64,000 bases of DNA from Halobellus captivus (lineage in GTDB: Archaea > Halobacteriota > Halobacteria > Halobacteriales > Haloferacaceae), in assembly GCF_003697845.1 (NCBI RefSeq), contig NZ_RDQE01000005.1, forward strand, positions 62,001-126,000, given 5' to 3'. The notes under the pieces were generated by a model. That model had not been told where the DNA came from. It made no database searches and saw only the letters and a program-made list of their open reading frames with translations. The position numbers were made by a program, and so were the translations under genes. Numbering within the stretch: position 1 is the first letter of the stretch; every line of letters starts with the position of its first letter. This document shows positions 13,697 through 36,274 of this stretch, piece after piece.

Positions 13697-14335
13697 TCAC
13701 CGCGGCGTCGCCACGATCCCGAGGTGGTCCTCGTGGAACCGGTCGAGCCGCCCGCTCTCGAGCACCTCGTAGGTTCCATCCAGCTCCGCGAGCACGTCCG
13801 TGAACACGTCGTCCGGGTCGGCGGTGACGTCCTCGCTACGGGCCTTCACGGCCAGCAGCAGCCGCCCGTCGTCGGCGAGAAAGCGCGCGTTTCGATTCGC
13901 GACCGTCGCCTGCCCGCGGGTCGCGACGTCCTGGACGATCGCGTCGACGTCGCTCTCGACGACGTGCGCGTACGTCTCCGGCTTCCGGGCGTCCTTCAGG
14001 AGGGGAAACAGCCGGTCGCGGGACTCGGCCACGTCGAGCAGGTCCCGCGTCGGCCGCGGAGCGAACTCCACCGCGTACGTCGGCCCGGCGAAGTCGGCGA
14101 CGTGGCCCACGGTCGTGCCCGCGGCCGCGCCGAGGTACAACACCGTCTCGCCGCCCGAGAGGCCGGTGTCGAACCCGAGCTCGAACATCCCCCCGAGCTT
14201 CGACCGCTCGGGGTCCCACGCGCGCCACTCGCCATCGGTCGGCTCGCCGTAGACGGGCGGTCCGCGCGTCGCCAGCCGCGTCTCGCCGCCGAACTCGCGT
14301 CGCTCGACCCCGTCCGGGAGGGCGGAGTCAGGCAT
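13697..14335 (-). CDS. flpA: Fibrillarin-like rRNA/tRNA 2'-O-methyltransferase
   Basis: 212 residues. Fibrillarin signatures are clear: RAWDPERSKLGGMF near residue 40, VLYLGAAAGTTVGHVADFAG (SAM motif I), YAVEFAPRPTRDLL, and DVDAIVQDVATRGQA with LLLAVKARSEDVT towards the C-terminus. It is the catalytic subunit of archaeal box C/D RNPs, methylating ribose 2'-OH in rRNA and tRNA with SAM. ATG 14335 overlaps the 3' end of nop5 by eight bases, the conserved archaeal nop5-flpA operon. The operon's upstream part has been replaced by the integrated element (see nop5). Confidence 0.95.
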   Translation of the reverse strand: MPDSALPDGVERREFGGETRLATRGPPVYGEPTDGEWRAWDPERSKLGGMFELGFDTGLSGGETVLYLGAAAGTTVGHVADFAGPTYAVEFAPRPTRDLLDVAESRDRLFPLLKDARKPETYAHVVESDVDAIVQDVATRGQATVANRNARFLADDGRLLLAVKARSEDVTADPDDVFTDVLAELDGTYEVLESGRLDRFHEDHLGIVATPR

Positions 14336-15248
14336 CGTCTCCCTCCGTGGCCGCCGAGTCGCCCCCCGGACCCGGCGCGTCGTCCGCATCTCCGTCCACG
14401 CCCGCCGGCTCCGCCCGCGCCCGGATCGTCGCCATTCGCTCGCGGAGGTCCTCGTGGAGCACCTCGCGGTACTCCCCCGAGTAGTGGTCGGCGCGCGCCG
14501 CGAGCGCCAGCTTTCCGGCGAGCGCCCGCGCGGCCGACCCGCGGTCCTCGGGGCGGGTTCCCCTGACGAACTCGTGGGTGTAGATGATCCCGTGTTTCGG
14601 CGAGGGGGCTCGCCCGGAGAGATGCGCGAAGAGCGCGTCCTCCGCGCCGAGCACCTGAACCGTCCCCGAGGGCTTCTTCGCCAGCGGCTCCAGCCCGCCC
14701 GCGAGCGCGATCAGCCGCGCCGCGAGCTCCGGGCCGGCCATGTCCGCGAGGTTCGGCGCGACCGCGGGCGCGATCCGGTCGATCGTCGCCGCCAACGCGT
14801 CCCGCTCGTCGGCGAGGGCGGCCGCCCGCGCCGAAAGCGAGACGACCCGTCCGTCGAGGTCGCCGCTCGGCTCCCGCTCGGCGAGATCGCGAGCCCCCGC
14901 GATCCCCGTATCGACGTCGTCGAAGCGGCTCCCCGCCCACTCGGTCGCCCGTTCGGCCAGTTCGTTCGCGACGCGCTCGCAGTCGTCCATAGCACGAATA
15001 CTATGTTTTAACTGTTGGTCATCTGCCCTCTCTCGTTCTTTAACGACTTCTCGGGTAGTGTAAGTCGCTGCTTCGTGGAGTTTATCGTAGTATTCGTTTT
15101 TGTCCTCCGCAAAACCAGACTCAACGGCCTTTGTGGGCCAATCCTTTGGCGATTCTGTGTTTCCGCTGTCGATGGCTTTTCGAGCGGCTTCTAGGTCGTC
15201 AGGTGGGACTGATTCAAACCATCCTGAGTCGGCATCGGCGTCTGTCAT
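14328..15248 (-). CDS. nop5: Nop5/Nop56-58 box C/D RNP scaffold, hybrid of element-encoded N-terminus and native C-terminus
   Basis: 306 residues. The C-terminal Nop domain is recognised by FAHLSGRAPSPKHGIIYTHEFVRG and GKLALAARADHYSGEY; the middle is coiled-coil-like; the N-terminus (MTDADADSGWFESVPPDD) is the fibrillarin-binding part. Codons 1-86 (15248 to ~14991) are AT-rich with K/N/T choices like the adjacent island, whereas the rest is GC-rich like flpA. A GC-rich allele of the same 86 residues lies stranded at 35987-36274, aligning without gaps (about 55 of 86 identical by eye). The element therefore inserted at the codons for RAMDD and rebuilt the gene with its own promoter and 5' end. 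The frame is intact, so the protein is probably functional. Confidence 0.9.
   Translation of the reverse strand: MTDADADSGWFESVPPDDLEAARKAIDSGNTESPKDWPTKAVESGFAEDKNEYYDKLHEAATYTTREVVKERERADDQQLKHSIRAMDDCERVANELAERATEWAGSRFDDVDTGIAGARDLAEREPSGDLDGRVVSLSARAAALADERDALAATIDRIAPAVAPNLADMAGPELAARLIALAGGLEPLAKKPSGTVQVLGAEDALFAHLSGRAPSPKHGIIYTHEFVRGTRPEDRGSAARALAGKLALAARADHYSGEYREVLHEDLRERMATIRARAEPAGVDGDADDAPGPGGDSAATEGDDA
14983..15003. other. attL: recombination junction inside nop5
   Basis: Core TCGTCCA (14983-14989), six bases, then the arm GAATACTA (14996-15003). On the nop5 strand the arm and core encode S-I-R-A-M, so this arm is both coding sequence and probable integrase-binding site. It is the mirror image of the arm at attR. 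Confidence 0.75.
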
Positions 15249-15267: not shown

Positions 15268-15286
15268 AATTCGTATATGTATCCCG
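15268..15286 (-). promoter_or_regulatory. nop5 promoter supplied by the integrated element
   Basis: On the minus strand CGGGATACATATACGAATTCG-like sequence lies 23 bases upstream of the nop5 ATG. Nearly the same block (TCGTATAGGTATCCCG on the plus strand, 36298-36313) lies 24 bases upstream of the displaced native start. The block holds a TATA-like ATACATATA; its conservation in sequence and spacing between the two diverged copies suggests that it is the functional promoter of a nearly leaderless mRNA. Confidence 0.55.
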
Positions 15287-15361: not shown

Positions 15362-18175
15362 ATGGATACTTCGCATGGATCCAGATGGAACAAATGGGAT
15401 TTACATGTACATTCTCCTTCCTCGTTCCACGAAAATTTCAATTTGGAGCGATCACTCGGAGCTGAGGAAGACCATGAAGATGCTGTCTGGGAGCGCTACC
15501 TTGACGAATTAGAAGACATAGACGATATATCCTGTATCGGAATAACGGACTACTTCTCTGTTGAGGGTTATGAACGAGTTCAAGAGGCGATTGAACAAGA
15601 TGACCGGTTACAGAACTTCGACCTAGTTCTTCCAAATGTTGAACTACGCGTAGATCATTTCGTCACTAGTCGTTCAGGCGGTCATTCGTCGGAAGCCGTC
15701 GAAATGCATGTTCTCTTTAGTGACGAACTAGACCCTGTCAGAATTCGAGAGAATTTCATAAATCAACTCGAAGCAAAAAAGCCCGACGGAAATACAATGC
15801 CTCCCACTCGGGAAAACCTTGAACGGCTGGGTCAAAATTCTGAGTTCGATACGTATGATGATTACGATGACCCGTATATTGCTGGTTGTAACAGAATCAC
15901 CGTTGACGTTGATACGATCTATGAAGCGCTGGACAGCGATGTCTTTGAAGGTAAGTATCTCACTGTCTTAGTCGAAGACAACTGGGAAAAGATTTCTTGG
16001 GAAGGTCGGGCAGGTACACTTAGAGGAAGTCTCTTGGGCAAGGCCGACGCTGTATTTATCAGTAATTCAGATACGAGGGATTGGTTACTTGGCCGGACCG
16101 AAATGATGTCTACTGCTGAGTTTCGGAAAGCGTTCGGTAGTCTAAAACCGGCACTTAGAGGATCAGACTCACACGACTTTGACGATTTTTGCGTCCCCGA
16201 TAAGAATCGCTACTGCTGGATTAAGGCGGACACGACTTTTGAAGGACTAAAGCAGATCAAGTACGAACCGGGAGATCGAGTTTATATTGGTGAGTACGAC
16301 CCTCAGCGGCGTGTCTCAATCCATACGCCAAATAACGTGAATATTCGAGAGGGTGTAATAAATGACCGGCTGACTGTGTCAGATACCACTCTCCCTCTTA
16401 ATCCAAATCTCGTTACAGTAATCGGTGGTAAGGGGGCAGGAAAAACTGCGTTACTAGATTTAATTGCCAATTTTTATCAAAACAGGCACATTTCTGGGGA
16501 AGATGAAGAGATCGATGTTAATTCATTCATCCAACGGATTCAGGACGAAAATCCGGGCATTACGACAGAACTCGAATTCAATGGAGAAGACGTAGATCCA
16601 TTTGAGAAGTCAGTACTTGATGAAGAGTGTATCTCGCATTCGAATGTTGAGTATCTACCTCAAGGGAAGATATCTGAATATTGCCGGGATGAAGATCGGA
16701 TGCACGATCAGGTTCTGGAATTAATCCAGCAATCAGTTCGAACGACTGATTCAGAACTGATGGAACGTTTTGAGGAGAAACGCAATAGTATCCGCCATAT
16801 CGAGAAGGAACTCGAGGAATTAACGAACCGAATTCACGAGTATGACCCGGAAACAATTGATGAGCGAATTAGTGATGCGAAATCGGATCTAAACGCCGCA
16901 CGCGGCAAACTAGAAGATAAAGAACGGGAGATTGAGGAGTTTAGGGAAGAGCACGGAGATGAATTGCGGGACGAAAACTCCACAGAACTCCAGAACCAAT
17001 TAGATACTTATGATAAAGAGCTGCAAACAGTAGAGGAAATTAAATCTATTCTATCGGACCAACTCGAACGGCTTGGTGAGATTGAGGATTTCAATCGGGA
17101 TATTGGGAAGCTTAGATCCTTATCTGAAGAAACAGAGATTGAGGAGAATCTCGAAATAACCCAATTCTCTGTAGAGGAAGCCCGTTCAAAATTGCGTGAT
17201 TACGAACAAGCGATTGATGACGACATCTTGAGAATAACAGATCAACGAGAGCGTGTCCAAGACCAGCTAGACGATCTAGAAGATTTTGATCAAGAACTTT
17301 CTCAACTACTAAAAGAGAAACGAGAACAGCAGAAAGTCGTCGAGGAAGAAGAAAATAACGTCCAGTCAATAGAGACGGACTCCCAAAAAATCCAAGAGCT
17401 ACGAACTAAACGACGGAGCGAGTTCGTTAATTATGTAGATGCATATCACGACTTGAGGAACCTCTATTCATTAGTAATCTCTGAATTCGAAGCGGATCAG
17501 TCAGCAATTCTTGACGAAGTCAAATTCGATGCTAATTTAGACGTTATTGACGGTCTACAATCCAAGTTATATGACTTACTTGATGGGCGGAGTGTGAATA
17601 TCGCTGAAATTCAGCCAATAATCCAAATTGCACTAGATGCGATCGAAGGCAGTGAACAGTCAGAACATAATGCTGAAGCGTATCTTGAGGCAGCTCTGTC
17701 GTTCAAAGATCAGTTGTTAGCTAACGCTTCCACTGCGGAGTTTGAGCGACGCGTGTTTACTGGCAATTTCAAGCTATCAGAGCAGATTCTGCTAGAAGGA
17801 ACTCGAATGGAAGATCTATCTCTTGGACAGAAGGGAACGGTACTATTGAAGATCCTCCTCGCTCAAGATGAGAAGCCGCTGATTATCGACCAACCCGAAG
17901 AGAATCTCGACAATCGGTTCGTCTACAGAACCCTCAAAGACGCGTTCAAGGAGGCAAAAAAGAAGCGTCAGGTTATTATTGCGACCCATAATGCTAATTT
18001 GGTGGTGAATACGGACGCTGAACAGGTCGTTGTGGCGCAGTATGAGGAAAATGAGATATCGTTCAAGTCCGGTCCTCTGGAAGATGAGAGCATCAGAGAG
18101 GAAGTTACGACCGTATTGGAAGGGGGTAAAGAGGCCTTTGTTCAGCGCGAGGAGAAGTACGGGCTTGCTGAGTAA
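15362..18175 (+). CDS. TrlF-like protein: PHP phosphoesterase domain fused to SMC/RecN-type ATPase
   Basis: 937 residues. The N-terminus has the PHP metal motif WNKWDLHVHSPSSF (His15, His17), with further PHP-like patches CIGITDYFSVEGY and LRGSDSHDFDDFC (around 275). A Walker A, VIGGKGAGKTALLDLI, lies near residue 355, a ~230-residue coiled coil follows (about 465-690), and the ABC-type C-terminus has LSLGQKGTVLLKILLA (~820) and PLIIDQPEENLDNRFVYRTL (Walker B, ~840). This is the architecture of TrlF-family AAA-like ATPases, which occur in defence neighbourhoods; the PHP part may hydrolyse a nucleic acid or nucleotide. It sits alone at the element's left edge, divergent from nop5. Confidence 0.82.
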   Translation: MDTSHGSRWNKWDLHVHSPSSFHENFNLERSLGAEEDHEDAVWERYLDELEDIDDISCIGITDYFSVEGYERVQEAIEQDDRLQNFDLVLPNVELRVDHFVTSRSGGHSSEAVEMHVLFSDELDPVRIRENFINQLEAKKPDGNTMPPTRENLERLGQNSEFDTYDDYDDPYIAGCNRITVDVDTIYEALDSDVFEGKYLTVLVEDNWEKISWEGRAGTLRGSLLGKADAVFISNSDTRDWLLGRTEMMSTAEFRKAFGSLKPALRGSDSHDFDDFCVPDKNRYCWIKADTTFEGLKQIKYEPGDRVYIGEYDPQRRVSIHTPNNVNIREGVINDRLTVSDTTLPLNPNLVTVIGGKGAGKTALLDLIANFYQNRHISGEDEEIDVNSFIQRIQDENPGITTELEFNGEDVDPFEKSVLDEECISHSNVEYLPQGKISEYCRDEDRMHDQVLELIQQSVRTTDSELMERFEEKRNSIRHIEKELEELTNRIHEYDPETIDERISDAKSDLNAARGKLEDKEREIEEFREEHGDELRDENSTELQNQLDTYDKELQTVEEIKSILSDQLERLGEIEDFNRDIGKLRSLSEETEIEENLEITQFSVEEARSKLRDYEQAIDDDILRITDQRERVQDQLDDLEDFDQELSQLLKEKREQQKVVEEEENNVQSIETDSQKIQELRTKRRSEFVNYVDAYHDLRNLYSLVISEFEADQSAILDEVKFDANLDVIDGLQSKLYDLLDGRSVNIAEIQPIIQIALDAIEGSEQSEHNAEAYLEAALSFKDQLLANASTAEFERRVFTGNFKLSEQILLEGTRMEDLSLGQKGTVLLKILLAQDEKPLIIDQPEENLDNRFVYRTLKDAFKEAKKKRQVIIATHNANLVVNTDAEQVVVAQYEENEISFKSGPLEDESIREEVTTVLEGGKEAFVQREEKYGLAE

Positions 18176-18198: not shown

Positions 18199-19290
18199 CT
18201 ATATTCCAAATTTGTAGATACGCTCGCGGTAGAGAGGTTCGATATCCTCATAGTAGCTGTGTATATAGTGGTCAATCCCACCAGCGGGATCCGTAGTCCC
18301 ACCAGCTGAGGTATCCCCTCGCATGTACTTGATTAATTCCCGATTCAGGTCCTGCTCAACACGCCAGAACGTAGTGAACCGGTGGCGACCGTAGTGCGAG
18401 GTAACTGCCCTGTGCTGCTGTGTTTCCTCATACTCCGGATGGAAGTGGCGCTTCCAAGCGAGGTTAATTGCTTCGTCGTCTACCTGTGAGTGGCTCGTAC
18501 GAGAGAGGAACAACCATGGCTGCTCATTGTCAGGCCGGATGAGTAGATAGTTCATCCAAAGTCGGCGAAGTTCCTCGTCAACAGGGAGAATTCGGGGGCG
18601 TTTTGATTTATTCCCTTTACGATCGTGGGGGATGTAGACAGCATTCTCAAACCGAGAGACCTGCGGTGAGGTTCCCATCTCCGGGTAATGATCGGCCACC
18701 TCGCTGTTGGTGATGTTCAGCTCGCTAATCTTGATGTTCGCCATCTCGCTGGCGCGCAGACCTAGTTTGAGCTGTGTTACGATGAACGCGCGGTCCCGAA
18801 TGTGCTTCACGTCTCGGACTATCCCCCGTAGGTCCTCAACCGGAATTCGGGGCGGTTCCTTCACTCGCCGAGTTGAGAGAGACAGTTTCTTTTTCGCGAT
18901 CATGAACGGGTTGTAATCTACTGGATGCGGAAACTCCGCCCCGTTCTGCCAGTACTTGTAGATTTTGTTCAGTTCCCAGAGCTTCTTCTTCGCCGTCCGT
19001 CGGGTGTTCCCCTTTTCATCCAGTTCCCGACGAACGAATCGCTTAACGTGGTCTTCATGGGGACAGGCAGGGTGGCGACCCTCTCCTTGCATGAACTCGC
19101 TCCACTCCTCGATCGTTCGCTCATAGGAGACTATGGTCCCCTCTGCGGGATCCTTTGGTTTCAGTACATCTTCAATGAACAAGCCGAACACGTCGACATC
19201 GACGTGATCGAACGTCGAAGCGTGGTCTGCTAATGGGTCTATCTCTCGGTCGAAGGCGTCTGCTAGTGCTTGGCGGTCGTTTTCGGACAT
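18199..19290 (-). CDS. Tyrosine recombinase (site-specific integrase)
   Basis: 363 residues. The N-terminal SAM-like core-binding domain spans about residues 25-120 and the catalytic domain about 145-360. Active-site residues: Arg179 in KLGLRASEMANI, a Lys-rich strand RKGNKSKRPRILPV, His299-x-x-Arg302 in SHYGRHRF, His341 in GGIDHYIH and Tyr346 or Tyr347. All catalytic positions are present, so it should be active. It is the obvious candidate to act at the att sites. The gene lies 3 kb inside the element and is last in a minus-strand run with two small partner genes, four bases after the nearest. Confidence 0.92.
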   Translation of the reverse strand: MSENDRQALADAFDREIDPLADHASTFDHVDVDVFGLFIEDVLKPKDPAEGTIVSYERTIEEWSEFMQGEGRHPACPHEDHVKRFVRRELDEKGNTRRTAKKKLWELNKIYKYWQNGAEFPHPVDYNPFMIAKKKLSLSTRRVKEPPRIPVEDLRGIVRDVKHIRDRAFIVTQLKLGLRASEMANIKISELNITNSEVADHYPEMGTSPQVSRFENAVYIPHDRKGNKSKRPRILPVDEELRRLWMNYLLIRPDNEQPWLFLSRTSHSQVDDEAINLAWKRHFHPEYEETQQHRAVTSHYGRHRFTTFWRVEQDLNRELIKYMRGDTSAGGTTDPAGGIDHYIHSYYEDIEPLYRERIYKFGI

Positions 19291-19294
19291 GGAT

Positions 19295-19801
19295 TCAACG
19301 TTTGTCGTTTTGCTCTAACTTTCGATCCCACACCTTTCGGGCGAATCCCCCAGCTGCGACGGCCATCAACACGGGATGATACACGTGCGGGTGGTCGGTA
19401 TGCCACTGGAGCCAGGTGTAGAACTCTTCCAGCGGCTGGAAGTACTCGAAATACACCGTCTGGAGCTTCCGAGGTTGGTTACGCCTCCCGACTTCGCCAT
19501 CCCGCAGACCAGTCAGATATCCCTCGATGTGTTCGGGAGCGGCCAACGCGTGATGTCGGCCAGCCTTCTGCATGAAGTTCTGAAGGTACCGACCTGCTTT
19601 CTCGTAGCGGTCCCGAGTAGATTTAGTGTTGAATACCGCAGTCTTCTCTTCGAAGTAGTTCGCCCACACATCCCGATCTGCATAGGCAGGTTCGTGGTTT
19701 TGGAGACGATATTTCGTCGGGACGCTATCAATATCCTTGTACACGCCCATTCGCTGGCGTACGTCGTTCGAAAGTCGGGGACGATTTTTCGGTGCAGCCA
19801 T
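19295..19801 (-). CDS. Integrase-associated protein resembling a stand-alone core-binding domain
   Basis: 168 residues, basic, mostly helical: DVWANYFEEKTAVFNTKSTRDRYEKAGRYLQNFM, PEHIEGYLTGLRDGE and TVYFEYFQPLEEFYTWLQWH. The pattern (T-x3-Y at a helix start, then an LxxFYxWL helix) is that of the N-terminal SAM-like domain of tyrosine recombinases, but no catalytic domain follows. The stop lies four bases before the full integrase, which has its own core-binding domain. It could be an accessory architectural or directionality factor. Decay of a second integrase is the alternative. Confidence 0.6.
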   Translation of the reverse strand: MAAPKNRPRLSNDVRQRMGVYKDIDSVPTKYRLQNHEPAYADRDVWANYFEEKTAVFNTKSTRDRYEKAGRYLQNFMQKAGRHHALAAPEHIEGYLTGLRDGEVGRRNQPRKLQTVYFEYFQPLEEFYTWLQWHTDHPHVYHPVLMAVAAGGFARKVWDRKLEQNDKR

Positions 19802-19803
19802 GA

Positions 19804-20265
19804 CTATGCTTCCTCAACGTCTCGGGCGATCTCGTCCTGGAGATAGTACTGTTCGTCTTCTACGCGGAGGTCATCACCCTCCATCTCATCCAAGTGTGTC
19901 GTAACTCGGGCGGGGACTGTCTCAACTAGGTGTTGGATAATTTCGTCGTAGATCGCTCCCGGATTCTCAGCAACGTATTCCTTGACTTCTCTCCGCTCGC
20001 TGTTGTAGACTGCTTCCTCTAAATCGCCAATCCTCTCACGGGCCCGGTCCAGTTCGGTCTTCAGTTCGTTCCGTTGCTGACGTAGTTCCCGATTCGTTTC
20101 GTCTGGTTCTACGTTGCTGGTGTCGAACTTCTTCAGCCCGGCTTCGACCATCGCCTCCATGAACTCCGACATTGATCGCATCCCGAGTTCTTCGCACTGA
20201 TTTTCCCATCGGTCGTACTGCTCCTCAGATGGGTAGGTCGCAGCCTGTTTGTAGTCGTCCCCCAT
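19804..20265 (-). CDS. Coiled-coil DNA-binding-like protein of integrase modules
   Basis: 153 residues. An N-terminal segment, YKQAATYPSEEQYDRWENQCEELGMRSMSEFMEAMVEAGLKKF, has the strand-helix-helix look of a ribbon-helix-helix protein; a charged coiled coil (about 60-95) follows, then a winged-helix-like end (NPGAIYDEIIQHLVETVPARVTTHLDEM). Related proteins commonly precede integrases in haloarchaeal elements as far as I recall. Two bases separate it from the next gene, so the three genes form an operon. Possible role: regulator or recombination directionality factor; not established. Confidence 0.65.
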   Translation of the reverse strand: MGDDYKQAATYPSEEQYDRWENQCEELGMRSMSEFMEAMVEAGLKKFDTSNVEPDETNRELRQQRNELKTELDRARERIGDLEEAVYNSERREVKEYVAENPGAIYDEIIQHLVETVPARVTTHLDEMEGDDLRVEDEQYYLQDEIARDVEEA

Positions 20266-22500: not shown

Positions 22501-22756
22501 TCAGGTTGTTAGCTGCCCCCATCTTCGGCAGAAGATTGGACAGTGTTTCAAGTGACCGCACCAGCTGGACCTCGTTCTCGTAGTCGGTGGTAACTCGATA
22601 CTCGTCTTCGCTTTGTGTAACAACCCCGATATCCAGGTATGCGAGGAGTTGGATGGTGAACCTGATCTCGTGAGTCACACCTTCCGTTTTGGCCGGTCGA
22701 GTATATGATGACCTCTTTTCGTGTTCGTACCTCCGTCGAGCCGCAGGTTCCGTCAA
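22364..22756 (-). pseudogene. Winged-helix-like ORF remnant abutting the CRISPR trailer
   Basis: The 130-codon frame contains THEIRFTIQLLAYLDIGVVT, then QSEDEYRVTTDYENEVQLVR, a pattern like the second half of a winged-helix regulator (helix, wing, return strand). Its first codon is directly next to the terminal CRISPR repeat, so the natural N-terminus is missing or replaced, and the C-terminal half runs into the degenerate ~254-bp repeats. I regard it as a truncated regulator gene, though expression of the remnant cannot be excluded. Confidence 0.4.
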
Positions 22757-25700
22757 ACTTCTATCCTACGAGGGTTCGTCTGAAACTATTGCGGTCGGCG
22801 ACTCGGATCGGATGGTTCCTGCTTCAATCCCACGAGGGTTCGTCTGAAACGGGCGAGCTCGACCGGACCGTGTCGACGTGGATCGCTTCAACCCCACGAG
22901 GGTTCGTCTGAAACGGCCCACGAGCAGGTGACGCTGGGGGAGGTGACGGGCGCTTCAACCCCACGAGGGTTCGTCTGAAACCCGGCGTTTGAGTGGACGC
23001 TACTCCATGATAACGGGCTTCAACCCCACGAGGGTTCGTCTGAAACCGGCCCGATGCGAGCGCCGTCCTCGACGTGGTACCTCGCTTCAACCCCACGAGG
23101 GTTCGTCTGAAACCGGACCAGCTCCGCGCCTTCGTCGAACGTCGCGGCGTGCTTCAACCCCACGAGGGTTCGTCTGAAACCACTCCCCCACACGAGGGGA
23201 CACCCACCCGCGGAGTCGCTTCAACCCCACGAGGGTTCGTCTGAAACCAGGCAGAGACGCGGGGGACGCGGACGGCCACCCCGCTTCAACCCCACGAGGG
23301 TTCGTCTGAAACCGCGACGTTCTCCGAGTTCACGATCTCCGACGGGGCTTCAACCCCACGAGGGTTCGTCTGAAACAACCGAGAGGCTATCGACCTAAAC
23401 GACATCGACAAGCTTCAACCCCACGAGGGTTCGTCTGAAACTGGACGACCGGATCGACTCGGGGAGTTGGCCCGCTTCAACCCCACGAGGGTTCGTCTGA
23501 AACAGTCGTAGAGCCCCTCATCGAGATTCGAGCTGTCGCTTCAACCCCACGAGGGTTCGTCTGAAACGCGGTTCGACCGCCGCCGGTGGATCGAACGCCG
23601 GGGGCTTCAACCCCACGAGGGTTCGTCTGAAACTTGTTCGGGTTTCCAAAGTGGATGTTCCTCGCCCGCTTCAACCCCACGAGGGTTCGTCTGAAACCGT
23701 CTCGCGTTTCGCCCGCTCGTCGATGAGCCGGCGGCTTCAACCCCACGAGGGTTCGTCTGAAACCGTCTCGCGTTTCGCCCGCTCGTCGATGAGCCGGCGG
23801 CTTCAACCCCACGAGGGTTCGTCTGAAACCGCTCCGCCGAGCAAGGCCGTTAGCCCCCACGCGAGGCTTCAACCCCACGAGGGTTCGTCTGAAACGGACG
23901 CCGTCGACACCGACCACTCCGAGATCGACGGGCTTCAACCCCACGAGGGTTCGTCTGAAACGCTCACCAGACGACACGCAGTACAAGACACCAGGACGGC
24001 TTCAACCCCACGAGGGTTCGTCTGAAACCGTTGCCGCCCGCGGCGGCCTCGGCCTCCTGGAAGGGGCTTCAACCCCACGAGGGTTCGTCTGAAACTCGCC
24101 GGAGACAGCGAGCGCTTTGCCGTCGTCTCGCTTCAACCCCACGAGGGTTCGTCTGAAACCCGTCCCCAACTCGGACTACGGCGTGTTGGACATCGCTTCA
24201 ACCCCACGAGGGTTCGTCTGAAACTATGGATCGCTGTCACGCTCGGCCAGCCGGGCGAGGCTTCAACCCCACGAGGGTTCGTCTGAAACCGCTGTTTCTG
24301 GAGTCGCGCTTTTACACCACGTACAGCTTCAACCCCACGAGGGTTCGTCTGAAACTGTCTGCCGATATACGTCGTTCCAGTCCCCCCGATCGCTTCAACC
24401 CCACGAGGGTTCGTCTGAAACCCGCTATACGAAGTCGACTACTCCGAGCGCGCGGGGCTTCAACCCCACGAGGGTTCGTCTGAAACCGATCGACGCGACG
24501 CTACGCCCGGTCGAGAGCCCCGAGCTTCAACCCCACGAGGGTTCGTCTGAAACCTGAGGCAATCGGGCAACATCGAACCATCAGACCTGCTTCAACCCCA
24601 CGAGGGTTCGTCTGAAACGATCGACGTGCTGGTGACGCTCCACGAGCGTTACGCGCTTCAACCCCACGAGGGTTCGTCTGAAACAGGCTGCTCGGAGAGC
24701 CAGATGGCGTCGATGTCATCGCTTCAACCCCACGAGGGTTCGTCTGAAACAACCGCCTCGTCGATCGTCCGGGTCGCCGCGTTCTGCTTCAACCCCACGA
24801 GGGTTCGTCTGAAACGAGCACATCAAGACTGCCATCAAAGCGGCCGACTCGGGCTTCAACCCCACGAGGGTTCGTCTGAAACTCGCGGAGTTGGCGGACG
24901 ATTTCTTGCCGCGCGGTCCGCTTCAACCCCACGAGGGTTCGTCTGAAACGTTAGAGTTTCAAGCCCGCGACACCGATGGCCAAGCTTCAACCCCACGAGG
25001 GTTCGTCTGAAACCGTCGCGGTCGTCATCCCGACGTGGCTCGTTCTCCAGCTTCAACCCCACGAGGGTTCGTCTGAAACGTAGTGTCTCGGGGAGTGGGT
25101 CGGACGTAGAGCGCGCTTCAACCCCACGAGGGTTCGTCTGAAACTGTCCTTGAGCGCCTGTGCTTGGTCCGTCCGTACCGCTTCAACCCCACGAGGGTTC
25201 GTCTGAAACCCACGGCGTCGGTGTCCTCCGCGAGTTGGTCCTCGCTTCAACCCCACGAGGGTTCGTCTGAAACCGGCGTCGCATGCGACTGGGACGGAGA
25301 TACGGGCAAGCTTCAACCCCACGAGGGTTCGTCTGAAACATAGCCGCGTCCATTCCGAGGCCGTTCGCCACTGGCTTCAACCCCACGAGGGTTCGTCTGA
25401 AACCCGCGGCCGTCTCGGGTGTGTCGTCGGTGCGTGGGCTTCAACCCCACGAGGGTTCGTCTGAAACGAACAGGCCCATGCGCGTGGCGAGGCCGAGTTG
25501 CCCGCTTCAACCCCACGAGGGTTCGTCTGAAACTATGCGCGTCGAACGACTCGCGGTACTCCCGCAAGAGCTTCAACCCCACGAGGGTTCGTCTGAAACC
25601 CCATCCACGGCGTTAGGCGTCCTCTTCGTTCGTGCCGCTTCAACCCCACGAGGGTTCGTCTGAAACGAGCAACTGCGACGGGACGGGTTTAGTCCGCACG

Positions 25701-26127
25701 TCGTGCTTCAACCCCACGAGGGTTCGTCTGAAACGGGTGTCGCACCTCAACGGGGCGCGTCGCGAGCGAGTGCTTCAACCCCACGAGGGTTCGTCTGAAA
25801 CTCCTGATAGGGCTTGTCGAGCCACGCGTCGACGTCGCTTCAACCCCACGAGGGTTCGTCTGAAACCCTTGTCGTGAGCGACGAGGCGATAGATCGCGGA
25901 CCAGCTTCAACCCCACGAGGGTTCGTCTGAAACTACCGGGTTCTTGTGGGTGGGTGTGGTTAGGGATCGCTTCAACCCCACGAGGGTTCGTCTGAAACCG
26001 ACTCGATTTCCGTGTCCGTGATATTGGGATCGCTTCAACCCCACGAGGGTTCGTCTGAAACACCTATGAGACACGGAAACAACGGGAGAGACGCGGAGCT
26101 TCAACCCCACGAGGGTTCGTCTGAAAC
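22757..26127 (-). CRISPR. CRISPR array, 52 repeats and 51 spacers, type I-B
   Basis: 30-nt repeats begin GCTTCAACCCC and end TTCGTCTGAAAC on the plus strand; the transcribed (minus) form begins GTTTCAGACGAACCC, the classic haloarchaeal I-B repeat. I located 51 near-identical repeats from 22821 to 26127 plus a degenerate one at 22757-22786 (four mismatches); the repeat at 22821 has one mismatch. Spacers are 32-37 nt. The degenerate end is distal and the cas2 side is leader-proximal, so transcription runs right to left like the cas genes. Spacers 23698-23733 and 23764-23799 are identical. Spacer targets could not be searched. Confidence 0.98.
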
Positions 26128-26231: not shown

Positions 26232-26492
26232 TTATAGAAACCGCTGGCCTTCGGTTGGATCGTCACCATATACCGTCCGATTAAGGAGTGTATCGGAAGA
26301 TAGCTCATAGATAATCGTTGACTCACCGGGGATTAGCAGGTCATCAATCTCGTCTTTCAGCGTAGCCAGATCACCTTCTGAGATCTCCCCTTCGAGTACT
26401 GAGTTCTGGACATGGGTCAGGTACCGCCGACCGAGTTTGAGAGCCTTCTGCGTGCGGTCGGCTTCCAAGTCGTAGACCATCACAACGTACAT
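26232..26492 (-). CDS. cas2: CRISPR-associated endoribonuclease/adaptation protein Cas2
   Basis: 86 residues starting MYVVMVYDLEADRTQKALKL, with the conserved first-strand Asp (YDLEADR), then LTHVQNSVLEGEISEGDLATL and a ferredoxin-like C-terminus. It forms the Cas1-Cas2 complex that inserts new spacers at the leader end. ATG 26492 sits one base after the cas1 stop; upstream in-frame codons overlap cas1 and are not used. Directly precedes the array. Confidence 0.95.
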   Translation of the reverse strand: MYVVMVYDLEADRTQKALKLGRRYLTHVQNSVLEGEISEGDLATLKDEIDDLLIPGESTIIYELSSDTLLNRTVYGDDPTEGQRFL

Positions 26493-26493
26493 G

Positions 26494-27489
26494 TCACCAC
26501 CACCGTTGGAACGGATCGTATTCCTCACCAGTGAGCAAGTGCTTCTTCATTTTGTACGCTTCGAGCCGCATCAGGTATTGATAGCTGACCTTCCGGTTCA
26601 GGTTCGGGTGCTCAACAGTCCGTTCCAACGTTTCTTCGAATGCCTTCGTGTACGTCTTTCGTCCGGACTCGTTCAACAGACAGGAGCCTAGTTCCGTCTC
26701 GAAATCGGCATCTGAAATCTGGTTTCGGTTCACCAACCGGAATAGGACCCGATCAGCGAGCACGGGTTTGAACAGGTCCGCGATATCGAGCGACAACGAG
26801 TACCGTCGCTCCCCTGGCTCGTGGAGGTAACTGATCGTCGGATCGAGTGCGGTCGCCCGGATCGCCGAGACGCAGTTGGCATAGACCAGCGAATTACCGA
26901 ACGAGATGAGGCTGTTGATCTCGTTGGGTGGTGGGTTGTACTTTCGTCGGCTGAGCTGGAACTCGCTTGGAAGGATTTCGTTGAAGCTCCGGTAGTAGGC
27001 TTTTCTCGCCGTCGCTTCGGTACCCAGTAGTTCATCGATAGGAAGTGAGTCGTCGACACGTGCGGCTGCCGCTTCCAGATCATCGATGACATCGTCGAGA
27101 TCGCAATCCCGGCCGTTGTAGTAGACGACATTTGTCCGCATATTGTGGATGCTTCCCCTCACAATCGCGGCGGCGAGCTGTCGTCGATGTTTGCTATCCT
27201 CGTAGGCGCGTACTTGGTTGACGACGGTCTTTCCGGAGGTCTGCCCGCGTTTCGGCATCACTGAACCCGAGTAGTAATCCTCCCACCCGAAGACGTGGAG
27301 TGCGACTGTGCGGTCGTTGAGAAACGACATCAGCCGCGTGTTGAAATCGATCTGGCCATGGAGGAAGAACGCCTCGGCGTTCTCGATTGGGATGTACTTC
27401 TTGTCGCCCCCGTCGTCGGGAACGAGTCTGAGCGTGTCGTCGCTTCGTTCGAGTCGGCCGTCCGAAAAGACGTGGTAGTTTCGGTCCAT
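26494..27489 (-). CDS. cas1: CRISPR integrase Cas1
   Basis: 331 residues from ATG 27489 (MDRNYHVFSDGRL), the family start. The beta-rich N-terminal domain (ENAEAFFLHGQIDFNTRLMSFL) is followed by the helical catalytic domain with FGNSLVYANCVSAIRATALD, the HEPGERRYSLSLDIADLFKP block (metal-binding His and Asp) and LNRKVSYQYLMRLEAYKMKKH at the end. This is the type I-B Cas1b group. It integrates prespacers with Cas2. Located between cas4 and cas2 with only 1-2 base gaps. Confidence 0.96.
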   Translation of the reverse strand: MDRNYHVFSDGRLERSDDTLRLVPDDGGDKKYIPIENAEAFFLHGQIDFNTRLMSFLNDRTVALHVFGWEDYYSGSVMPKRGQTSGKTVVNQVRAYEDSKHRRQLAAAIVRGSIHNMRTNVVYYNGRDCDLDDVIDDLEAAAARVDDSLPIDELLGTEATARKAYYRSFNEILPSEFQLSRRKYNPPPNEINSLISFGNSLVYANCVSAIRATALDPTISYLHEPGERRYSLSLDIADLFKPVLADRVLFRLVNRNQISDADFETELGSCLLNESGRKTYTKAFEETLERTVEHPNLNRKVSYQYLMRLEAYKMKKHLLTGEEYDPFQRWW

Positions 27490-27491
27490 GG

Positions 27492-28040
27492 TTAACACCA
27501 ACAGAAGTCGTGGTACGCACACGAGTCACAGAACGGTTTTTCCTCGGCCGGTGGCGGCGAGGACTGACTGACGATGTCATGAATCCCACGGATCGCCGTT
27601 TTGATTTTCTCTCTTCGTTCGTCAGTAAGGTCGACAGGCTCTCGTTTGCGTTCTCGGGGATGGGCCAAGACGCCATCTCGCTGGATGTCGGCCACACGGT
27701 CGAGATACCAGAGGTAGTACGACAGCTGCATCTCGGCCGGTTCAGTCAGCGTTGAGGAGGGTTTGACCTCGACGACGCGGCCGTCGTCCAACAGATCGAG
27801 TGAGATCATCCCGAGGTGGAGGTTTTCCCGCTTGTCGCTGTAGGCCGTGTCGTCGACGCGAGTGCCACGAACGACAGTCGGGTTCTCGCGGTCGATTTCG
27901 AGATTCCGGCTCTCGAACCAAAGTTCGCGCTTACAGACGTAGTAGTACTGTATCATGACGCCCGTCACGCGGAACGGGTCGTCAACCGGCTTGCCGCGAG
28001 CTGTGGCGAGGAGTCGATCGACCGGATCAGCGTCGGTCAT
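27492..28040 (-). CDS. cas4: CRISPR-associated exonuclease Cas4
   Basis: 182 residues, RecB-like nuclease with an Fe-S cluster. The first cysteine is in YYYVCKRELWF (~residue 32); three more form FCDSCAYHDFCWC at the C-terminus. The nuclease core shows HLGMISLDLLDDGRVVEVKPS (Asp and ExK). It trims prespacers and checks PAMs before integration. The start overlaps the cas3 stop (ATGA), confirming an operon. Confidence 0.95.
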   Translation of the reverse strand: MTDADPVDRLLATARGKPVDDPFRVTGVMIQYYYVCKRELWFESRNLEIDRENPTVVRGTRVDDTAYSDKRENLHLGMISLDLLDDGRVVEVKPSSTLTEPAEMQLSYYLWYLDRVADIQRDGVLAHPRERKREPVDLTDERREKIKTAIRGIHDIVSQSSPPPAEEKPFCDSCAYHDFCWC

Positions 28041-30670
28041 ATAATTCGCCTCTCCGCGGTACTGTCCGGAATAACGAATCCTGTGTTCTGGTCGAAATAC
28101 TGGCTCAATCCGTGTTCACGGGTATCGAGACACAGGACATCCGTGTCCTCATGAACCGGATTCAGTTGTCCGATTTTTTCCTTCTTATCGGATTCACCGC
28201 GGTAGATCGGCATCGACACGCGTAGCTCTTTGAGCTCATCCATCAGTCGACGAACACGGTCAAACTCGTAGTGCTTCCACGCGTCACGTACCTGTTCTAC
28301 CTGCCTCCGTTCAGCTTCAGTACGACAAATGATGATGTCCACTGCGTTTCGCTGATCGATCAGCGATAGCTCTCTCAATTTATCTCCACGTAGATCGTCG
28401 ACATACTCAACGTATTCCTGTTTACCGACATTTTTGTCGGCATGTAGTCGTCGATAATATTCTGTGACCGCTGTGCGGGCAACCGCTGTCTCCGAAAGAG
28501 GTGTATCAGCTTCACGGATGGAATCCAGCGTTTCGGCTGCAACGGGAAGCAGTGTCGCTCCGCGATTATAGACTGCTTCTGCCGGCGTTTTTTTCTGCTC
28601 GTCTGGAACATCGAGCCACCAGATGATGACCCGCCCTTGTTCTCGTTCAAACGACCGATTACAGCGACCGGCCGCTTGGACGATACTGTCGATTGGGGCC
28701 AAGTCGCGGTAGACGCGGTCGAAGCTGATGTCAACACCGGCCTCAATGAGTTGCGTCGAGACTGTAATAAGACCGTGTTCGTCGTCAGTGAGTTCTTTCG
28801 CTGTTTCGATAAGTTTGAGCCGATCTAGCGGACGAAGACGCGTCGAGAGATGAAGTATCGATACATCGCTTTGGTTTTTGATACGAGTAGCGAGTGCCTC
28901 CGGATCGATGTCAGCTGTCGTATCGGCAGCTTCGAGTTCGTTGGCATAGACATCCCCAACACTCAGGAGCGAACGTCGGGGACCAGTGAGTTCGTCAAAG
29001 AGTGTGCGCGCACTATCAATTGTGTTACAGACGGCAAGGGTTGACGCTCCAGCATCGACCGCACTGAGCAGTTCGGCTCCTGCGTCGGGGTATGCTTTCG
29101 GCTCGGATTGGGTTTCGAGATACCGTTCGGCCGATACATCGAGTTCGTACTGAACGCGTTCGGTCGCCTCGAAGTATACATCCGGATCATCGACCAGTTC
29201 GCTTACGTTGCCTATTCGCTCGGTTCCTGCATCGAACAGCTGTGGCTGCGTGGCAGTCATAGCGATCACCGTCGCGTTGTACTGCTCGGTCAGAATTGTA
29301 ACGAGGCGAGGGATGAGCTTCCACCAGTCAAGTGGTAGGCTCTGTGGTTCATCGAGGATCACAACGCTGTCACGGAGTGCAGAGATCTTCATCGACTGCT
29401 TGTTGGCCGGGCCAGCGAGGCTTTCGAACAGCTGGACGAAGGTTGTCACGGTAAGCCCCGCACGCCAACTTTCGGCGAGCATCCCGGCCACGTCGTCGTT
29501 CCTGTCTGCCTTATCGGCGTCTACGTCGTCTTCGTCGACGATTTTGGTTTCCGAGAGGTGGTGGTGAGCCGTCAGTAACCGACCGAGGGTGTCAGTCTCG
29601 TAGATTTCTTCGACCTCATTGACCACCTGATCGATGATACTGGTAAACGGCAACGCATAGACGATACGCTCGCCGCCGAGTTTATCACGGATCGTCTGTG
29701 CGGCCGACAGCCCGGAGAGTGTTTTTCCCATACCGGTTGGCAGTGTGAGCGTCGCTACACCGCCGCCCCCCTCGGCAAACTCCTCCGCATTCGCTATGAC
29801 AGCTGATCGTGCGCGTGACCGGTAGTGATTCAATCGTTCTGTTCTGGAGCCATCCGGATCAGCAGGCGATGACGATTCGAGATCGTCAACGTACTCGTCT
29901 AATACCCGCATCGATGGCCGTTCTGCTTTGTAGGGTTCCCCCGAGCTAGCATCCTTGCTCCGGCTCGCTGCACTCGTCTTATCCGCAAGCACGAGCGATC
30001 CCCAGCATTCGAGAACCAGTCCATAACAGGAATCGGACAGCGAGTCACGACTGATTGTCGTCCCGCTCTCCGTGGCAACAGCAGCGGCAATCTCGTCAAG
30101 AAGCTCTTTGTACGAATACCGAAAATCGTCCCACGACCCGTGGCTATCAGTTGCACCGTTGAAAATATCGGTCGCAAGCTCAGGAACGTGTTCTTCGATG
30201 TCGTTCAACTGCATGGCGATTGCTGCCTGTTGCTGTTCGGCATTGGTCTGGGCACCCCCCGTTGAGTTCTCCGAGTTGTACGCACGGTTGTGGATGTACT
30301 GAGTCACATCCGGCAGCCGACCGTGGTGTTTGGCAACCGCGACGAAGCCGGCTAGGCAGGTCTCAGTTTCAAATCCCTGTGTGTCGAGGGCGTAATACGC
30401 TGCGAACGAGCCGATTGGGGCATGGTATCGACACGGCTTGTACTCAGGTTCGGTGTTGTGTCGAAGGTACTCCTGAAAGAACGTCGTCGCTTTTCCGAAG
30501 TCGTGAACGTAAGCAAGCGTCTTAACGACTCGCTGTAGCGATTTATCCGCAGGCGTTGATGCCTCGTCAGGCACGATTTTACTGGCTCGTCGGGCGACAT
30601 CATCCAGATGCTCTTGAAGATGGACACCATCATGACCGTCTTCGGGTGGGTGGGAGTACCGAACAGACAT
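28037..30670 (-). CDS. cas3: CRISPR-associated helicase-nuclease Cas3 (HD + SF2)
   Basis: 877 residues. The N-terminal HD nuclease shows HLDDVARRASKI, AYVHDFGKATTFFQ (~residue 55) and VAVAKHHGRLPD. The helicase has LTLPTGMGKTLSGLSAAQ (Walker A, ~315), VVILDEPQSLPLDWW (DExx) and VSTQLIEAGVDISFDRVYRD followed by QAAGRCNR (motifs V and VI). It is recruited by Cascade to degrade target DNA. One-base overlap with the cas5 stop; all motifs appear intact. Confidence 0.97.
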   Translation of the reverse strand: MSVRYSHPPEDGHDGVHLQEHLDDVARRASKIVPDEASTPADKSLQRVVKTLAYVHDFGKATTFFQEYLRHNTEPEYKPCRYHAPIGSFAAYYALDTQGFETETCLAGFVAVAKHHGRLPDVTQYIHNRAYNSENSTGGAQTNAEQQQAAIAMQLNDIEEHVPELATDIFNGATDSHGSWDDFRYSYKELLDEIAAAVATESGTTISRDSLSDSCYGLVLECWGSLVLADKTSAASRSKDASSGEPYKAERPSMRVLDEYVDDLESSSPADPDGSRTERLNHYRSRARSAVIANAEEFAEGGGGVATLTLPTGMGKTLSGLSAAQTIRDKLGGERIVYALPFTSIIDQVVNEVEEIYETDTLGRLLTAHHHLSETKIVDEDDVDADKADRNDDVAGMLAESWRAGLTVTTFVQLFESLAGPANKQSMKISALRDSVVILDEPQSLPLDWWKLIPRLVTILTEQYNATVIAMTATQPQLFDAGTERIGNVSELVDDPDVYFEATERVQYELDVSAERYLETQSEPKAYPDAGAELLSAVDAGASTLAVCNTIDSARTLFDELTGPRRSLLSVGDVYANELEAADTTADIDPEALATRIKNQSDVSILHLSTRLRPLDRLKLIETAKELTDDEHGLITVSTQLIEAGVDISFDRVYRDLAPIDSIVQAAGRCNRSFEREQGRVIIWWLDVPDEQKKTPAEAVYNRGATLLPVAAETLDSIREADTPLSETAVARTAVTEYYRRLHADKNVGKQEYVEYVDDLRGDKLRELSLIDQRNAVDIIICRTEAERRQVEQVRDAWKHYEFDRVRRLMDELKELRVSMPIYRGESDKKEKIGQLNPVHEDTDVLCLDTREHGLSQYFDQNTGFVIPDSTAERRII

Positions 30671-31467
30671 CAGACGAACACCACAGTTCGACCGTCGACA
30701 CTGGCAGCTGACGTGTTTGTAACTTTGAGAGACTCGGCATCAGGATTATACGCGTAGTTGGTGAATCTCGTTGTTGTCCGACCACCAGAGTCAGCTTTCA
30801 TAAACGCTGGTGATTCTTCGATCTGACAGCGTGTGCCTGCCTCAAGGACGACATCGTCGACCGCATTCGGTACGGCCGAATCGACCTCGATAGTGCCGGT
30901 CTGAGGGCCATCCTCAATATCGAACTCACCGTGATACTCGATATCTGCGAGGTGTTCGGAGAGACCGAGACTCGGCACATAGTGAGATTCCCCTGAAGCA
31001 AGCGTTTTACGCAGCTCGGAATACCATTGATCGTCAGCGAGTGCGATATCGATACGGTAGGCCGGATCGACCAGTACCTCGTAGTTGTGCTGCTGCCGGA
31101 GGGTCGTCGGGTCAGGTAGTTTGATGCTGATTTTTCCGCGACCATTGAGTGACTGTAAGTTTCCAGCAGCAGTCGAGAGCGTGTTCATCGGCATGTTAAC
31201 CGTTCGAATCTCACGAACAGGCTCAATTGCGACTGCTGAGTTATCAGGCCCGAACAGGTCGTAGTAACCATCCCGTTCGATTCCAAGGACTGCTGCGAGG
31301 AGTCCAGCAGCGGTTGTACGAGGAATGATCCGATAGGTTTGCTTGACGATGTTGCCCTCGATCCGTCGGAAGTGCCCCCACGGGCCCCGAACGGTAAACG
31401 AGAGACAGCGATCAGGCTGGTCGTCGTCTTCGTCGTCCGTCCAGCCGTCCAGCGATTGTTGGGACAT
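30670..31467 (-). CDS. cas5: Cascade subunit Cas5 (type I-B)
   Basis: 265 residues. The N-terminal RAMP strand reads RCLSFTVRGPWGHFRRIEGN, with the family pattern SFxVxGxxxHFR; YRIIPRTTAAGLLAAVLGIERDGYYD follows. It caps the 5' handle of crRNA in Cascade. Close to Haloferax Cas5h. Preceded by cas7 with a two-base gap. Confidence 0.94.
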   Translation of the reverse strand: MSQQSLDGWTDDEDDDQPDRCLSFTVRGPWGHFRRIEGNIVKQTYRIIPRTTAAGLLAAVLGIERDGYYDLFGPDNSAVAIEPVREIRTVNMPMNTLSTAAGNLQSLNGRGKISIKLPDPTTLRQQHNYEVLVDPAYRIDIALADDQWYSELRKTLASGESHYVPSLGLSEHLADIEYHGEFDIEDGPQTGTIEVDSAVPNAVDDVVLEAGTRCQIEESPAFMKADSGGRTTTRFTNYAYNPDAESLKVTNTSAASVDGRTVVFV

Positions 31468-31469
31468 CG

Positions 31470-32552
31470 TTAGGCCGTGTCGTCGTCACTTGGGAGTGTC
31501 GCAGTCTGTTCGTCGTAGACATCGATTTTCTCGACGGCATCCGCTCCGAGGGCGTCTTCGAGTGCGTCGTGAAGCACCGCTGGTCCACCAAGATCGCCAT
31601 CGTAGGAGAGTTCTAATACGTCGCTGGCAACAAACCGAACTTGGTTGATTCTGTCACTCGCCCCATCGAGTCGATTCACGAGGCCTGTCACGTCAAGCGT
31701 GAGGTCACGAACCGTTCGAAGTTCCTCGTCAGGTTTCGAATGTTCGTCGTCGAGTTCGAGATCACGGTCAAGACCGCCAAGGTGGAAACTCTCGTCGGCG
31801 TACTCGACACGGAAGTAGATCCGCGGTTCCTGTCCGACTTTGCTACGACTAATAGTCTGATTCTTGATCGCGCGCCAGCACAGCGTATCGAGCCGTTTGA
31901 CATCCGCTTCAGTGAGGTTTGTGTCCGCCGCACCGTGTTCGTCGACGAGTCCGTGGAACCGAATCAGCCCGTACTGAATCCGATGGTCGTCAAGATCGAA
32001 CCCGCCCTGCTGTTTGTTCTCCTGTGTGGCGATCACGCTCGTCAGGCTGTCGTACTCCTCGTTTTCGTTGACGGCGTGTATCGATTTGCCGGGTGAGAAC
32101 TGAACGGGGCCAGTGAAGTGATCCGGCAGGTGCTTGGCATATACCTCGTCGGTATCCACTGACATCGTCGCACCAAAGTATCGCACGTCGACGCTTTCAT
32201 TCAGGAACTCCCCGAACACGTCGTCGCGGAACTCGTCGGCTCCCTCGTCATCATCGAGATCGTAGTCGTCGGGCTCGACAGCCTTGAGCCGATTTTCGAG
32301 GAGCTGCCCGCGTGTGTACTGATCGCCGTCTTCCTGTACGTTTCGGATGTAGACGCCGTGGCCGTCATCGTCGAGTTGGTCGCGGAGATACCGCTTCAGG
32401 CGAACGTCGGTAACGATTGCTTGCTGGGTTTGTGGATCGATTCGCGGCCGGTTAGCACCGGACAGTGGGTTGCCGTTTGGATTTGCATCAACGGCATCGT
32501 ACAGGAAGACGATTTCTGAGCGGTTCGTTACTGGATCAGGTGTGTCGGACAT
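31470..32552 (-). CDS. cas7: Cascade backbone subunit Cas7 (Csh2 type)
   Basis: 360 residues. The N-terminus NRSEIVFLYDAVDANPNGNP, then LSGANRPRIDPQTQQAIVTDVRLKR, is diagnostic of Csh2/Cas7 of subtype I-B. Further blocks are VRYFGATMSVD and GPVQFSPGKSIHAVNENEEYD. It multimerises along the crRNA. Follows cas8b after one base. Confidence 0.96.
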   Translation of the reverse strand: MSDTPDPVTNRSEIVFLYDAVDANPNGNPLSGANRPRIDPQTQQAIVTDVRLKRYLRDQLDDDGHGVYIRNVQEDGDQYTRGQLLENRLKAVEPDDYDLDDDEGADEFRDDVFGEFLNESVDVRYFGATMSVDTDEVYAKHLPDHFTGPVQFSPGKSIHAVNENEEYDSLTSVIATQENKQQGGFDLDDHRIQYGLIRFHGLVDEHGAADTNLTEADVKRLDTLCWRAIKNQTISRSKVGQEPRIYFRVEYADESFHLGGLDRDLELDDEHSKPDEELRTVRDLTLDVTGLVNRLDGASDRINQVRFVASDVLELSYDGDLGGPAVLHDALEDALGADAVEKIDVYDEQTATLPSDDDTA

Positions 32553-32553
32553 G

Positions 32554-34707: not shown

Positions 34708-35509
34708 CGGCTCCCTCCAGTTCGCTCTCGCCTGGTCGCGTTTTCTCCGTGATATTCACGAACCCGAGTCCCAGCGAGTTCCGTTCACCAAGCCCGCAAT
34801 CCAACGCGAGATTGAGGTGCCGGCGATGATGATCGTCCCGAACCGTATAGGAGAACTCCCACTTGCTCAGGACGTAGGTCATCTCCTGACCCTCGGTGAC
34901 GGTCACCGGAACGGCGAACGTCTTGATGAGTTCGTAGCCGTCGAACAGATCGCCATCGACATCGCTCGGCCCCGGCAGGTGGTCGTGGGCGAAGCGGTCG
35001 TGTTTCTGATCGAGGTTGTCCTCCAGCTGCTTACGCAGTGGCTCCATCGAGTGCTCTGGTCGCCAGAACACGGCAGTGTCGCCGCCGGGATGGTCGATCC
35101 CGTACTCCTCGCATCGCCACGGCGGAATCCGAACCAAGAGGCCAGTGCCGGTTTCGATCGTCCCTCGCGTGCCTGGTTCGCCAACATCGGGGTCGAGCGA
35201 AGTCACGTCATCGACGTGGAACGGCATCTCACCGATGTTCAGCTCCGGCTCTTCAAGCAGATCGGCAGCGACGTTAGCCAGTAGCTCCTCCTCTGGCGAA
35301 GCGACCAACAGTTTACGGTCGTCACCCTCCTCCATGTCGTAGGGGGGAAACGGGTTTGAGTAGGCGAACCCTGGCGGCTCGCCGTCGTCGTGTCGTTCGC
35401 CGTAGGTGGTCCCCTCAAGTGCGTCCCAGAGACGGCTGCGCAGCTTGTGGTGGTAGTCGTTCTGGTAAGCGGCATCCGCGCGTGCGGACAGATGTGCCAT
35501 TATACGCAC
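34694..35509 (-). CDS. cas6: crRNA-processing endoribonuclease Cas6
   Basis: 271 residues of double ferredoxin-like fold. It starts MRIMAHLSARADAAYQNDYH and ends with the Gly-rich loop ALDCGLGERNSLGLGFVNI, the G-rich signature of Cas6. A His near residue 20 (NDYHHKL) is a candidate catalytic base, as in Haloferax Cas6. It cuts pre-crRNA in the repeat, leaving the 8-nt handle. First gene of the cas operon; the gap upstream (35510-35986) holds its promoter. Confidence 0.94.
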   Translation of the reverse strand: MRIMAHLSARADAAYQNDYHHKLRSRLWDALEGTTYGERHDDGEPPGFAYSNPFPPYDMEEGDDRKLLVASPEEELLANVAADLLEEPELNIGEMPFHVDDVTSLDPDVGEPGTRGTIETGTGLLVRIPPWRCEEYGIDHPGGDTAVFWRPEHSMEPLRKQLEDNLDQKHDRFAHDHLPGPSDVDGDLFDGYELIKTFAVPVTVTEGQEMTYVLSKWEFSYTVRDDHHRRHLNLALDCGLGERNSLGLGFVNITEKTRPGESELEGADAFA

Positions 35510-35986: not shown

Positions 35987-36274
35987 CTATACTAGTATTC
36001 TGGCCATCGTCCAGAGGGCGCGGACCGCATGGATCAGCTGCTGGTCGTCCGCGCGCTCGCGCTCCGCGACGGCCTCGCGGGTGGCGTGGAGGCTCGCCTC
36101 GTGAAGCCGGTCGTAGTAGTCGTCGACGTCGTCCGCGAAGCCGGACTCGACGGCGAGACGCGGCCAGTCCGCGGGTGACGCCGCGCTCCCGCGTTCGATC
36201 GCGTCGCGGGCGGCAGCGGGGTCGTCGGGCGGAACGGACGCGAACCAGCCCGCGTCGCTCTCGTCGGTCGTCAT
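35987..36274 (-). pseudogene. Displaced native 5' end of nop5
   Basis: The frame starts MTTDESDAGWFASVPPDD and matches residues 1-86 of the intact nop5 at 14328-15248 without gaps; after RA it diverges into LWTMARILV and stops at TAG in element DNA. Its GC-rich codons match the chromosome, so this is the original gene start, cut off by the insertion. Its own promoter block (36298-36313) survives, so a 95-residue truncated product could still be made. The 2-3 bases next to the att core differ in number from the restored gene. Confidence 0.9.
35993..36013. other. attR: recombination junction at displaced nop5 fragment
   Basis: Arm TAGTATTC (35993-36000), six bases TGGCCA, then core TCGTCCA (36007-36013). 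Joined to attL, the circular element would carry TAGTATTC-N6-core(7)-N6-GAATACTA, a symmetric dyad of the kind bound by tyrosine recombinases. Confidence 0.75.

Follow-up and report, generated by a model that had tools for sequence, protein, structure and literature searches.

A dyad-symmetric site at the ends of nop5-integrated elements of haloarchaea is probably their attP core site

The nop5 gene of Halobellus captivus, on the minus strand, is interrupted by a segment whose G+C content (42-62%) lies below the roughly 70% of its surroundings. When the two ends of this segment are joined, an inverted repeat appears around seven shared bases. Is this dyad the attachment site of an integrative element, and which of its features belong to the site itself? 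The window, that is, the whole 64-kb stretch of DNA analysed, corresponds to positions 62001-126000 of contig C33 in this genome (G000). The drop in G+C delimits the element, which spans from one core copy (14983-14989) to the other (36007-36013). The host locus contains the following features:

13697..14389, minus strand: fibrillarin gene, the nop5 partner downstream in the host operon (Pfam Fibrillarin, 2e-49)
14328..15248, minus strand: hybrid nop5, 306 aa, host C-terminal part and element N-terminal part (codons before about 14990), assigned by Pfam (Nop, E 6e-37) and tree
15271..15285, minus strand: nop5-type promoter motif GGGATACATATACGA, a TATA-like box about 26-32 bp before the ATG
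35987..36274, minus strand: displaced host nop5 N-terminal remnant, 95 aa, with an in-frame stop just past the arm

Both a nop5 promoter and about 91 N-terminal codons are supplied by the element itself. The motif GGGATACATATACGA also precedes the displaced copy and most intact nop5 genes of the genus, and in the element it has the spacing of the intact genes. Over the compared stretch, the remnant is 89% identical to an intact homologue of the genus, against 67% to the element copy. The element N-termini of the H. captivus, G023, Natrinema and Haloglomus groups are 84-95% alike and nearer to each other than to any host gene. In a tree of the N-terminal region (77 columns, many forks open), element copies mostly cluster together and displaced remnants group with their hosts; the contrast does not extend to G336, G317 and G405, which have diverged too far. 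As judged from the sequences, integration splits the host nop5 and rebuilds a hybrid gene, and the Nop5 N-terminus is itself cargo of the element. In 10/10 right junctions the remnant frame runs into a stop only a few codons from the crossover, and in the circular form this right-junction stop would terminate the N-terminus carried by the element. The displaced remnant (35987-36274) keeps an open frame and is possibly expressed as a truncated protein.

The junctions carry the following sites:

14983..15003, minus strand: attL, with core TCGTCCA (14983-14989), gap and arm GAATACTA (14996-15003); the same half-site is found in the nop5 elements of relatives
14988-15003, minus strand: fuller attL half-site CATAGCACGAATACTA, encoding H-S-I-R-A-M-D-D of the hybrid Nop5
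35993..36013, plus strand: attR, with arm TAGTATTC (35993-36000), gap TGGCCA and core TCGTCCA (36007-36013); the arm is kept in relatives

Read directly from the sequence, the arms, the 6-bp gaps (TAGCAC and TGGCCA) and the 7-bp core lie exactly where the original prediction had placed them. It had also been correct for H. captivus that TCGTCCA is the sole exact match common to both junctions and that the left arm encodes Ser-Ile-Arg-Ala of Nop5, here the hybrid protein. TCGTCCA alone is frequent (20 matches, 17.6 expected), TAGTATTC occurs three times in the window against 0.38 expected, and the 21-base half TAGTATTC-N6-TCGTCCA occurs once genome-wide. The third copy of TAGTATTC (15088-15095) was rejected as a site, being codon-driven (Nop5 Glu-Tyr-Tyr) and not conserved as DNA. 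When the element ends were shuffled, a perfect 8-bp dyad with equal gaps arose with a chance of 1.8e-4, and of 2e-3 when the gaps were allowed to differ by up to 4.

Relatives were searched for with the integrase protein against 391 genomes of the class and with Nop5 against 59 genomes. Seven other genomes from four families (G034, G023, G317, G336, G131, G222 and G345) showed the same insertion with the left half-site. A contig scan with the left half-site yielded 13 loci, including Halorubrum, Natrinema, Halolamina, Halopenitus, Haloglomus and Natronomonas, some of them in genomes already found by the protein search. As these 13 loci were picked by the left arm, its invariance in L085-L097 was built into the search pattern and excluded as evidence, and only their right ends count independently. 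Both ends were recovered in 10 genomes, namely H. captivus, G023, G131, G222, G336, G317, G406, G407, G410 and G405; in G407 and G405 they lie on different contigs, so that their pairing is inferred. Insertion at one target site in independent genomes, with a part of the host gene on either end, marks these segments as site-specific integrative elements. No episomal copy was found in the plasmid, phage and IMG/VR viral collections. One plasmid match was rejected as a free copy because it belongs to a normal nop5-fibrillarin locus of a megaplasmid, and one pattern match on a viral contig (L098) because it is not in the Nop5 frame.

Related elements that lack the arms were to count against the original prediction; the comparison spoke for the arms. 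Among the elements of other haloarchaea recovered at both ends, eight carry these arms, each time within nop5 and at an identical codon. Two mismatches are present in each of the right arms of G317 and G410, and no right arm is recognisable at the recovered right end of G405. Each of the eight relatives whose right arm can be recognised has 21 bp between the arms, compared with 19 bp in H. captivus, and a right gap of 8 bp rather than 6 bp; the best dyad centre of their reconstructed attP is in every case the C of TGGACGA, one base away from the centre proposed originally. In G131, G222 and G407 the dyad reads TAGTATTCGnnCCATG-GACGA-CATGGnnCGAATACTA, with 14 of 16 pairs matched. The fuller site is this pair of 16-bp half-sites flanking a 5-bp centre.

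The integrase and the genes next to it are as follows:

18199..19290, minus strand: tyrosine integrase, 363 aa, intact; Phage_integrase (1e-9) and SAM-like N-terminal domain, aligned to a PDB XerC-like recombinase
19295..20265, minus strand: a pair of small ORFs (168 and 153 aa), immediately upstream of the integrase gene

Both PF00589 (Phage_integrase, 38.9 bits against a cut-off of 27.1) and PF02899 (SAM-like) score above their cut-offs, which is the domain pair of the SNJ2 type. In the alignment with the XerC-like recombinase, the Arg (GLRASE), the Lys region and H-Y-G-R are visible; where a second His/Trp is usually found the sequence is RGD, and the alignment ends before the nucleophilic Tyr. 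The two small ORFs probably share an operon with the integrase, and a similar pair precedes a related integrase in L069. The integrase is intact in H. captivus, G034, G317 and G410, and truncated or broken in G023, G336, G131, G222, G345 and G405. Integrases of at least 60% identity adjoin nop5 with the sole exception of G019, whose integrase is broken, 62% identical over the C-terminal part and not located at nop5; a single GAATACTA near it was dismissed as a codon coincidence. Among 24 more distant integrases (about 45-56% identity), neither a link to nop5 nor an obviously truncated gene was seen, and the 1.5-kb flanks contained no tRNA. The linkage between integrase and site is correlative.

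Taken together, these features make it likely that the dyad is the attP core site of a haloarchaeal integrative-element family inserting at one nop5 codon. In the proposed mechanism, the tyrosine integrase of the element would bind two TAGTATTCGnnCCATG half-sites, arranged as an inverted pair around GACGA, and would recombine them with the nop5 sequence encoding Arg-Ala-Met-Asp-Asp, leaving one half-site at each end. The host 5' part of nop5 would be displaced to the far end and an intact hybrid nop5 formed, because the promoter and N-terminal codons brought by the element run into the left half-site. For the same reason the left arm would serve as both protein code and recombination site.

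The original prediction had been stricter, giving the attP of H. captivus as TAGTATTC-N6-TCGTCCA-N6-GAATACTA with TCGTCCA as a 7-bp overlap. This layout is exactly symmetric in H. captivus (13/18 pairs matched) and has the unique shared heptamer at its middle, but the spacing and centre of all eight two-armed relatives speak against it. The junction-shared sequence varies among genomes, from TGGACGA in H. captivus to ATGGACGAC in several and 14 bp in G222, and is only ACGAC in G023 and ACGA in G336; TCGTCCA therefore does not define the overlap, and the shared sequence does not by itself establish a 7-bp overlap. At the H. captivus right junction, CGC GCC CTC TGG ACG ATG GCC stands where homologues encode Arg-Ala followed by ATG-GAC-GAC-ATG. 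Compared with homologues, this junction lacks CA on the core's element side and has two additional bases on its host side, with the overall length unchanged and the remnant frame preserved. The codons CTC-TGG-ACG against the mostly ATG-GAC-GAC of homologues point to indels, and the right junction appears to have been altered by small indels after integration, which is the simplest view since the right end is unconstrained by an essential gene; a sequencing error could also account for the difference. With such indels, the 8-6-7-6-8 pattern and the unique 7-bp match are peculiar to this genome, and joining the present ends would not restore the attP used for integration, provided that the relatives preserve the ancestral state. 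Excision in H. captivus may also be impaired. The exact geometry is thus very unlikely to be that of the site; what stands of the original prediction is a tyrosine-integrase dyad attP in nop5 with one arm in coding sequence.

Could the symmetry instead be a coincidence of codon choice and AT-rich DNA? One arm does lie within coding sequence, and short arms can arise by chance at the rate obtained with relaxed gaps. The right arm, however, is read by no essential gene and is nevertheless retained in seven diverged elements (two with two mismatches), whose sequences diverge beyond the TATAG motif adjoining it. Intact nop5 genes mostly encode Ala-Val-Arg or Ala-Ile-Arg here, in other codons and without the arm. 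Among nine element copies (eight of these loci found without reference to the arm), 26 Nop5 residues are invariant, Met and Trp excluded, and only five of them use a single codon; two of these five, His CAT and Ser AGT, start the left arm. Coincidence is contradicted by the relatives and hardly credible, and the dyad is, on this comparative evidence, a real conserved site. The target behaves differently: attB is without the outer arms and has a weak dyad at the same centre, the centre at +4 ranking best of 100 positions in 25 intact nop5 genes. A selected dyad in the target gene was rejected, since synonymous resampling gave 9.53 against 9.36 observed, and the weak dyad of attB is thus explained by amino-acid sequence and codon usage. 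Several observations count against the core-site reading. The best-conserved arm pairs, located +/-10 to +/-18 from the centre, are far out for a core-type site; the outer arms are absent from attB; the right arms of G317 and G410 are imperfect and that of G405 is not recognisable; several copies have a broken integrase or none; and the G019 integrase is not at nop5. The outer arms might instead bind an accessory protein, such as a directionality factor or a small neighbour protein, the integrase binding only the inner CCATG/CATGG. This would suit best arm matches located 10-18 bp from the centre and missing from attB, as well as the two small ORFs that precede the integrase; the activity of the SNJ2 integrase is raised by two such proteins (PMC8371274). 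Against it, the arms are inverted and equidistant from the crossover, as expected of recombinase half-sites, and neither Pfam nor NCBIfam gave a DNA-binding domain in the small proteins beyond one sub-threshold match. Such an accessory role is unlikely, and the attP core site is the preferred reading.

Besides nop5 and the integrase, the H. captivus element carries the following cargo:

15362..18175, plus strand: TrlF-family ATPase (NF045780, 532 bits against a cut-off of 350)
22754..26080, no strand assigned: CRISPR array, about 52 repeats, end approximate
26232..35509, minus strand: type I-B cas operon (cas2, cas1, cas4, cas3, cas5, cas7, cas8b, cas6)

A site-specific integrative element thus contains a complete type I-B CRISPR-Cas system together with a long array. 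Type I-B genes are also present in the nop5 elements of G222, G131 and G406, and nop5 elements carry CRISPR-Cas systems among haloarchaea. The G023 element has Mrr-like and HNH nuclease genes, and that of G317 a helicase and an AAA ATPase. In H. captivus the TrlF ATPase gene separates the integrase from the nop5 N-terminus, and the two are directly adjacent in some relatives. About 10 bases separate the end of the integrase gene from the Nop5 start codon in L064 and L090; the last integrase codons overlap a nop5 promoter-like motif (CGAGAACGAATATAC in L090), a possible double use of DNA. In some genomes a hybrid nop5 remains and the integrase or the remnant was not found. L093, L094 and L095 have a hybrid nop5 with an element-type N-terminus, and no related integrase was found in the available DNA; in L093 and L095 the host remnant was also not found genome-wide, and these could be scars of lost elements.

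The SNJ2 pleolipovirus integrase and its relatives in Halobacteria are likewise haloarchaeal tyrosine integrases that combine a SAM-like with a Phage_integrase domain, share their operon with two small genes and use a short att site. The likeness is one of domains and gene layout, and no protein similar to the nop5-element integrase was found in the phage collection. SNJ2 targets a tRNA 3' end, whereas nop5 elements target a protein gene and rebuild its 5' part. When SNJ2 circularises, an ORF that spans attP is newly formed downstream of the integrase (PMC13107129). Only by analogy with this ORF, which acts in replication, might the circle of the nop5 element make a truncated Nop5 N-terminal regulator across attP, the undescribed family coupling defence cargo to an RNA-modification gene. 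Each element has its own nop5 promoter and N-terminus, so the attachment half-site would also be protein code; taken as a whole, this extended reading is quite unlikely.

Cre/loxP and XerCD/dif core sites consist of inverted half-sites around a short central overlap. The nop5 elements likewise have inverted half-sites, but here attP and attB differ outside the inner part. In the pTN3-like elements of Thermococcales, the 5' half of the target gene serves as attB, and the element side restores and expresses it (PMC8371274). Restoration of a 5' half is shared with the nop5 elements; the pTN3-like elements use a tRNA target and a suicidal-type integrase, in contrast to the conserved protein gene and unsplit integrase gene found here.

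Archaeal tyrosine recombinases mostly have tRNA targets, with few protein-gene targets and no recombination tests for these, and a 2021 review asks whether protein-gene targets have dyad symmetry (PMC8371274). No account of nop5 as an integration site was found in the literature. BJ1, Msmi-Pro1 and NitGar-E6 resemble the nop5 elements in having attB in a protein gene (PMC8371274); they differ in that the nop5 elements have a conserved dyad on the element side, which the review leaves as a question for the others. The nop5 family combines conserved half-sites with a defined target codon and an intact integrase, and offers a clear case of a protein-gene target, in which a mobile element repeatedly swaps the N-terminal part of a core protein.
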